This document shows positions 29,387 to 30,981 of a stretch of DNA of 64,000 bases, in pieces. The notes under the pieces were generated by a model. It did not search any database, was not told the DNA's origin, and was given only the letters and a program-made list of their open reading frames with translations. The stretch is from Acidobacteriota bacterium (GTDB taxonomy: Bacteria > Acidobacteriota > Vicinamibacteria > Vicinamibacterales > SCN-69-37): positions 1 to 64,000 of the forward strand of contig CANIII010000014.1 of NCBI GenBank assembly GCA_947467605.1, in the 5' to 3' direction. Made by a program: the position numbers and the translations under genes. The stretch's first letter is position 1. Each line of letters begins with the position of its first letter.

Positions 29387-29652
29387 TTTGCGAGTTCCGG
29401 CAACCGCCGAATCAACATGATCGCGAAGCTACTCATCTGCCGCAGCATCCACGGGAACGTCAGCGTGAACACCGCGAAGATCGCGGCCGCGCGCGGGATG
29501 AACGCGAGGACGTTGTCCTGAATCGACGTCACCGTCTGAAAGATGCTGACCAGCACGCCGGCCACCAGCCCGGCGAGCAGCAACGGCAGCGTGACCATGA
29601 CCGCCATCTCGACGGCCTGACGCATGATTCCAATGGCAACGGCTTCAGACAT
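29383..29652 (-). CDS. fliQ: Flagellar export gate protein FliQ
   Basis: 89 residues from the ATG at 29652. Two membrane helices with the signature EAVAIGIMRQAVEMAVMV and GLVAGVLVSIFQTVTSIQD, then TFPWMLRQM, are typical of FliQ. The start lies two bases after the fliP stop. A longer upstream frame reads antisense through the truncated peptidase and is not used. Confidence 0.95.
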   Translation of the reverse strand: MSEAVAIGIMRQAVEMAVMVTLPLLLAGLVAGVLVSIFQTVTSIQDNVLAFIPRAAAIFAVFTLTFPWMLRQMSSFAIMLIRRLPELAK

Positions 29653-29654
29653 GG

Positions 29655-29729
29655 CTAGAGAAAACTCCTCACAAGCGAACTGACCAGCAGGTTCCATCCG
29701 TCGATCATGACGAACAGCAGAATCGGCAA
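29655..29729 (-). pseudogene. fliP: 3' remnant of fliP (flagellar export gate protein)
   Basis: Minus-strand reading gives [20 protein letters not shown] followed by FL and a TAG, which is the conserved C-terminal helix of FliP (LPFKLxLFVLVDGW in relatives). In the same frame a TGA occurs at once upstream (29730-29732), and nothing beyond resembles FliP. Only about 22-24 of roughly 250 codons remain. The break is shared with the start of the M28 peptidase gene on the other strand. Confidence 0.85.
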
Positions 29730-30981
29730 TCAGTATTGGGGCCGCATTGCGGGCACTCCCTACGATCGGATGGCGGCCGAATGGGTGATGGCGCAGTTCA
29801 AACGCGTTGGACTCGAACAAGTTCATATGCAGGAATTTGACCTGCCTGAACAGTGGTTCCCAACCTCATGGGACGTCACCGTAAAGGGTTCCGTAACCAC
29901 GGTTCCGATCAAGACCGCATTTCCACTCTACGCATCGGTGGGCACCAAAGGTGGTGAGACCGTATTCCTTGAGCCCGTCTGGGTTGGTACTGGCATGACC
30001 GCCGACTTTATGGGCCGCGATCTCAAGGGCAAGGCGGCCGTCGTGTACGGGTTTCCAAATCCAGGCGGACGGGAGAACTCGGCGATCACATTTCAAGCCA
30101 TTGCCCATGCCCAGGAGGCCGGCGCTGCCGCATTGATCATGGTCCTGGGCATCCCGGGCAATGTGATGAACGAACCTGCTGGTGGCGCAACGACGCCGCC
30201 AGCCACGATGCCGGTGTTCATCATCGGGAATCAGGATGGCACGGCCATTCGCGAAATGATCGAAAAGCACGAGTCGCCCAAGATTCAGGTTCGGCTGACC
30301 GTGGAAATGAAGACCGGCCTCAAGAGCGCGAGCGTCTTCGGCGTCCTGCCTGGCACGGGCGATGAAAACGTTGCACTGATGGCTCACACCGACTGCTTCT
30401 TTGAAGGTGCCATGGACAATGCGTCCGGGATGTCAACCATCATGGCCCTGGCGGAGCATTACGCGAAGGTGCCCAAGGCGCAGCGGAAACGCAGCATGGT
30501 GTTCTTCACAACATCAGCGCACCACTCGCCATCGGGACCAAACGGGGGCACGCAGTGGGTACGGGCCAACATGAAGGCGACGCTGGAAAAAACCGCTGTG
30601 CTCCTGAATGCCGAACACACGGCGCAAGTCGCAACATACTTGGTCGGCGGCACGATGTATGCCTCGAATCTCGTCAGCGCCCGCCGTTGGTTCGTCGGCG
30701 GCAGCGATCAACTCAAGGCGATCGTTGACCGGGTCTTCAAACAGTACGGCATGGCCCTGTACTCCACGCCGGAAACCCGCCCGGGCGGTGAACTCGGATC
30801 ACTCTCTACGATGGCGCCGAGTTTTCACATCATCGATCACACGGTCTACCACACTGACCTCGATACGCTGAAGGCGGTGCCGGCCTACGGCCTTGAGCAG
30901 AGTGCGCGAGCCTTTGCCAAGGTCATCGATGAAGTGAACAAGCTCCCGCTGAGCCAGTTGCGAGTGAACATTCCGCAGTAG
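29707..30981 (+). CDS. M28-family metallopeptidase, N-terminally truncated at a breakpoint
   Basis: 424 residues in the longest frame. From about residue 9 (QYWGRIAGTPYDRMAAEWVM) it resembles M28 peptidases, with a PA-like inserted domain (GRDLKGKAAVVYGFPNPGG) and M28 core pieces (VALMAHTDCFFEGAMDNASG with His and Asp for zinc, then HHSPSGPNGG and HIIDHTVYHTDLDT). The family normally has a signal peptide and 40-60 more residues; here the first seven codons are antisense to the fliP remnant and no export signal is present. The usual Glu-Glu after the DNASG helix is not obvious, so activity is uncertain. Probably an inactive or mislocalised 5'-truncated gene. Confidence 0.75.
   Translation: MTNSRIGNQYWGRIAGTPYDRMAAEWVMAQFKRVGLEQVHMQEFDLPEQWFPTSWDVTVKGSVTTVPIKTAFPLYASVGTKGGETVFLEPVWVGTGMTADFMGRDLKGKAAVVYGFPNPGGRENSAITFQAIAHAQEAGAAALIMVLGIPGNVMNEPAGGATTPPATMPVFIIGNQDGTAIREMIEKHESPKIQVRLTVEMKTGLKSASVFGVLPGTGDENVALMAHTDCFFEGAMDNASGMSTIMALAEHYAKVPKAQRKRSMVFFTTSAHHSPSGPNGGTQWVRANMKATLEKTAVLLNAEHTAQVATYLVGGTMYASNLVSARRWFVGGSDQLKAIVDRVFKQYGMALYSTPETRPGGELGSLSTMAPSFHIIDHTVYHTDLDTLKAVPAYGLEQSARAFAKVIDEVNKLPLSQLRVNIPQ

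Follow-up and report, generated by a model that had tools for sequence, protein, structure and literature searches.

What event can make two genes on opposite strands lose their 5' ends at the same point? The question arises in a 64,000-nucleotide stretch of an Acidobacteriota genome (the window), in which the end of the flagellar export gene fliP abuts an M28 peptidase gene; an earlier note on this DNA had proposed either a recombination event or a chimeric assembly join. We compared the window and its genome (G000, a draft assembly of 32 contigs, 93.66% complete) with 13 relatives of the same family (G001–G013, making a family set of 14 genomes with G000) and with an order-wide set of 162 genomes. 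Two of the relatives share the genus of G000, namely G002, which has flagellar genes, and G001, which is 82% complete. We conclude that the fliP–M28 join is very probably a real deletion scar from the loss of the flagellum and one of two such scars in a collapsed flagellar cluster. The features of the locus are listed in Table 1, where J1 and J4 denote the two breakpoints and kinX and HK2 are labels for two histidine kinase genes. 'YVTN' is likewise our own label, for a beta-propeller-like gene (26254..27465) without a Pfam family match.

Table 1. Features of the collapsed locus, positions in the window; gene order purD-, rpsU+, kinX'-, flhA'-, MIP+, YVTN+, flhB-, fliR-, fliQ-, fliP'-, M28'+, HK2-, STAS+ (a prime marks a truncated gene)
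Feature	Position	Strand	Basis and remarks
purD	21734..23017	-	Pfam GARS_N/A/C; adjoins rpsU and STAS in relatives; conserved left flank
rpsU (ribosomal protein S21)	23120..23317	+	Pfam Ribosomal_S21, 1.6e-19; conserved left flank
kinX 3' part, histidine kinase ATPase half without H-box	23378..23917	-	72% amino acid identity to G002 kinX
J1, kinX 3' part in frame with flhA 5' part	23917..23918		alignment ends and base-level view
flhA 5' part, about the last quarter missing	23918..25450	-	FHIPEP profile positions 1-478 of 657
MIP (aquaporin-type) gene between flhA and flhB	25528..26196	+	Pfam MIP, 1.2e-18
Beta-propeller-like gene (YVTN) between flhA and flhB	26254..27465	+	71% amino acid identity to a G002 gene on another contig
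flhB, intact frame	27563..28627	-	Pfam Bac_export_2, 3.8e-114
fliR, intact frame	28634..29386	-	Pfam Bac_export_1, 2.3e-51
fliQ, intact frame	29383..29652	-	Pfam Bac_export_3, 1.6e-23
fliP stub, last 22 codons and stop	29655..29723	-	frame reading, FliP ends of relatives, DNA alignment
J4, fliP 3' end joined to M28 peptidase	29721..29725		fliP similarity to 29,720; M28 similarity from 29,725
M28 peptidase, 5'-truncated	29725..30981	+	Pfam Peptidase_M28 (PF04389), 1.1e-11, and PA
Terminator-like hairpin common to convergent M28 and HK2	30990..31040		self-complementary match
HK2, histidine kinase, start approximate	31052..31760	-	Pfam HATPase_c; G002 orthologue near flagellar genes
Promoter-like CTAGACT sequence, conserved, upstream of STAS	31819..31831	+	common to G001 rpsU-STAS spacer and G002 contig end
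STAS-domain gene, conserved right flank	31930..32268	+	Pfam STAS; adjoins rpsU in relatives

On the minus strand upstream of fliQ, a 24-residue frame is bounded by stops at 29,655–29,657 and 29,730–29,732. Compared with the C-terminal ends of the intact FliP of relatives, 22 of its codons (29,658–29,723) belong to fliP, and the leading L-P (29,724–29,729) is probably the antisense of the peptidase side. In each of five aligned loci (G002, G004, G005, G006 and G008), DNA similarity to fliP extends as far as 29,720 and no further. Because the stub itself gives a separate match of 84–86% identity over 59–64 bp in four of these loci, and in G002 falls inside a 2.2-kb match, it is not a chance resemblance. 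On the plus strand, the peptidase can be aligned to full-length relatives from GNQYWGRIAGT, that is, from 29,725, and its ORF starts with an ATG at 29,707, in DNA antisense to fliP. Since 114 residues, a hydrophobic leader among them, precede QYWG in the related peptidase L088, about 112 N-terminal residues including the leader are gone from the window copy. The ends of the two similarities place J4 at about 29,721–29,724, within a few bases of the position near 29.73 kb first proposed, although slightly to its left. The description in the earlier note of a fliP reduced to its last ~22 codons after a stop, of a peptidase that starts at its WGRIAGTP region without a signal peptide and with first codons antisense to fliP, and of both 5' ends lost at one point is otherwise borne out, with that point now recognized as one of two scars.

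The second scar, J1, is absent from the earlier note. It lies within a 690-residue ORF (23,378–25,450) in which a match to the FHIPEP (FlhA) profile gives way to one to a histidine-kinase ATPase domain. The break falls in the C-terminal domain of flhA, and the reading frame carries on into the second half of kinX. In the loci of the same five relatives, flhA similarity ends at 23,918 or 23,919, and similarity to G002 kinX ends, from the opposite side, at 23,918; viewed base by base, the two overlap by at most a base or so. The G002 counterparts are an intact flhA frame of 704 residues and a kinX with HisKA and HATPase domains, of which the window copy has the ATPase part only.

Both scars lie between genes that are adjacent in most of the family. 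In the eight loci read (G001, G003–G008 and G010), purD–rpsU and STAS are direct neighbours, and in G009, G011, G012 and G013 the rpsU region is beside STAS by coordinates, so that this neighbourhood occurs in 12 of the 13 relatives, with G002 as the exception. The window rpsU has 81–88% DNA identity to the loci of eight relatives. In G002, contig C99 reads purD–rpsU–kinX–kinase/receiver–motB, while contig C395 opens with the HK2 orthologue and continues with an NtrC-type regulator, a gene in the flgB place, fliE and fliF. The gene at the flgB place is similar to the genes found there in G004 and G008 and has no Pfam match. At the C395 end, ahead of HK2, there is a promoter-like sequence that also precedes STAS in G001 and in the window. 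In the window, the HK2 frame remains open to 31,909, past this sequence, and the true HK2 start is probably near 31,760. The cluster of G002 is split among several contigs, and judged from these contig ends the flagellar cluster would lie between rpsU and STAS in both G000 and G002. In G004, G005, G006 and G008, the contig with fliP is not that with STAS, and the cluster therefore seems to have been relocated in the genus of G000 and G002. Neither kinX nor HK2 has a match in 80 kb of the G004 cluster or in a 69-kb contig of G008, so the link between these kinases and flagellar genes comes from one genome, G002.

The flagellar genes of the window keep the order and relative direction seen in G004. 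Compared to the G002 layout, order and orientation are also the same, shrunk to kinX'-flhA'-flhB-fliR-fliQ-fliP'-M28'-HK2. In G004, flhB and flhA are adjacent, unlike in the window. The flhB–flhA spacer (25528–27465 in the window) holds unrelated cargo in G000 and in G002: in the window these are the MIP and propeller-like genes, whereas in G002 (L023 2874–6495; L058 before 9207) flhB is followed by an outer-membrane efflux gene and flhA is preceded by an oxidoreductase gene.

A course of events that would produce this arrangement begins with the flagellar cluster coming to lie between rpsU and STAS in this genus, as the G002 contigs suggest. A first deletion would then have begun within kinX, taken motB and further genes and ended in flhA. 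A second would have begun within fliP and ended within an M28 gene beside HK2, so that the 5' part of fliP and all cluster genes up to the flgB end were lost, along with the NtrC-type regulator and the 5' part of the peptidase gene. What would remain is kinX'-flhA'-(MIP, propeller-like gene)-flhB-fliR-fliQ-fliP'-M28'-HK2. Measured against G004, the losses come to ~13 kb between the regulator and fliP and ~28 kb between flhA and motB, although the lengths lost in this lineage may differ. No 14-mer spanning either breakpoint recurs within the window, and the absence of visible repeats at the joins suggests that both arose by illegitimate recombination, presumably end joining. No insertion sequence was seen at the joins, and RNA genes, also considered as features of the joins, were not found there. 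A perfect palindrome with 21-bp arms, located between the propeller-like gene and flhB (27,511–27,560), was rejected as a cause because 2.2 kb separate it from J4 and 3.6 kb from J1. Palindrome-like pieces of ~40–55 bp are present on six other G000 contigs, as in a REP-like or terminator-like dispersed repeat. At 8662–9318, close to the purine genes, the window also has a gene for an IS200-like (Y1_Tnp) transposase, which may be of the REP-associated kind.

The deletion model leaves the origin of the peptidase gene to be considered. M28 matches at E 1e-20 occur in 46 of the 162 genomes of the order, G000 included, and no orthologue is present in the other 13 family genomes, so that the position of the gene beside HK2 before the deletion has to be assumed. 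The best six relatives (L088–L093), which have the PA domain and come from other families of the order, share 64–71% identity over 413–417 residues and have open frames of 515–573 residues. The window copy has the M28 fold by profile and lacks the N-terminal region and leader of its close relatives. Classical M28 peptidases have a Glu-Glu catalytic/metal motif. At this position, HH is found in the window protein and in all ten relatives aligned with it (L088–L096 and L065; 11/11), which makes it typical of this M28 group and unrelated to the truncation. The peptidase gene is probably a new acquisition of the G000 lineage; it either lost its 5' end together with fliP in one event or was already a fragment on arrival.

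The latter case raises the possibility that J4 is an insertion, in which a break in fliP was repaired by taking up foreign DNA that carried the 3' part of an M28 gene. The patchy occurrence of M28 in the order and its absence from the rest of the family would fit such a capture, as would a codon score that ranks lowest in a comparison of 18 window genes, with 8 of them as the reference set. However, this score and the GC3 are close to those of purD, and both 5' losses would follow at once from one deletion between two genes already in place. We consider the insertion rather unlikely; it is a version of the deletion model, and the confidence placed in that model includes it. A foreign origin of the whole right half was rejected, because relatives of STAS, UbiA and the glycosyltransferase occur in the family.

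The missing orthologue, together with the draft state of G000, could also mean that a piece of an M28 gene from another part of the sample was falsely joined to the fliP end. Against such an artefact, the contig goes on after M28 to HK2–STAS–UbiA and thus returns, in the orientation of the relatives, to the STAS gene that they have beside rpsU. It would moreover take two independent false joins, J1 and J4, in one locus; the sequences spanning the breakpoints are not repeated in the window; and the lost gene halves were not found elsewhere in G000. Neither a shared repeat at the join nor mismatched flanks were detected, since the rpsU and STAS sides are neighbours in relatives. Of the two explanations offered earlier, recombination is hence the one supported; a chimera is improbable for a contig that leaves conserved sequence at purD–rpsU and comes back to it at STAS.

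The earlier note had stated that an intact fliP is lacking here, and this extends to the whole assembly. Searches of G000 for five other flagellar families, each matched in four of 14 control genomes, gave no match to FliP (PF00813), of which only the 22-codon stub is present, and none to FliM, FliF, MotB or flagellin, that is, to genes of the basal body, motor and filament. The MotB result is weak by itself and the weakest of these, because MotB_plug was also unmatched in G008, although the other flagellar genes are present there. A genome-wide profile search for FlhA returned the truncated copy only, and no second copy of fliQ, fliR, flhB or flhA was found in G000. The missing 5' parts, which the earlier note had proposed to seek in the rest of the genome, were not found in G000 either: neither the front of fliP nor the M28 N-terminus, for which a 114-residue query was used that matches the loci of seven of eight relatives at E 4e-6 or better at that database size. 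FliP, FlhA, FliM, FliF, MotB and flagellin were likewise not found in G001 (82% complete). G000 thus has FliQ, FliR and FlhB with near-complete Pfam profiles, and neither a full-length FliP nor a full-length FlhA with its cytoplasmic domain. Duplication, the remaining possibility named in the earlier note, would make the window a partial copy with an intact cluster elsewhere in the cell. At 93.66% completeness, ~6% of the genome is possibly missing and some genes could be absent from the assembly, but the lack of second fliQ, fliR, flhB and flhA copies and of any FliP, FliM, FliF or flagellin match makes a duplication highly implausible.

The deletion model has to account for the undamaged retained frames, a point against it that requires the loss to be recent. 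No frame damage was seen in fliQ, fliR, flhB or flhA', and their pairwise dN/dS to G002 is 0.11–0.18, compared to 0.10 for purD. With G004 as outgroup, unique amino acid changes in G000 and G002 number 6 and 3 in fliQ, 10 and 6 in fliR, 18 and 19 in flhB, 19 and 10 in flhA, and 19 and 17 in purD. Summed over the four remnant genes, they amount to 53 in G000 and 38 in G002, which is not significant; nor is the difference from G002 significant for any single gene, and a strong amino acid acceleration of the remnant was rejected. Intact frames and low dN/dS indicate that the loss is probably recent and suggest that it fell late on the G000 branch, although dN/dS is a pairwise average and cannot date it. 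The cell would have no flagellum, and fliQ, fliR, flhB and flhA' would be non-functional leftovers. An in-frame join as at J1 is expected by chance in one case of three. The fusion of the FlhA membrane part to the kinase ATPase domain, which persists next to intact fliQ, fliR and flhB, might be expressed and reused as a membrane sensor, or as a FliP-less secretion remnant, a reading that we consider most unlikely.

None of the papers listed by literature searches concerned this locus. The window matches the fliP–fliQ–fliR–flhB–flhA genes of the flagellar type III export gate in gene order and orientation, with the fliQ, fliR and flhB frames intact, but differs in having 22 codons of fliP, a flhA without its last quarter and an otherwise undetectable flagellum. 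A Xanthomonas study describes a close parallel: large deletions in an otherwise conserved flagellar cluster, with some genes left and several deletion patterns within one genus, in strains that are non-motile (PMC3826837). There, ISXfu2 has taken the place of 34 contiguous genes in X. fuscans subsp. fuscans 4834-R (PMC3826837). The window differs in having two separate deletions, fusions within genes and only a small export-gene remnant. The event is most likely of this known kind, ordinary genome decay and not a new system. The presence of fliQ, fliR, flhB and flhA in a draft genome is accordingly no evidence of a flagellum. Most species examined in this family show no flagellar motor gene (FliM was found in 5 of the 14 genomes), and the present locus catches flagellar loss early, at a stage when reading frames persist and both scars can be read.
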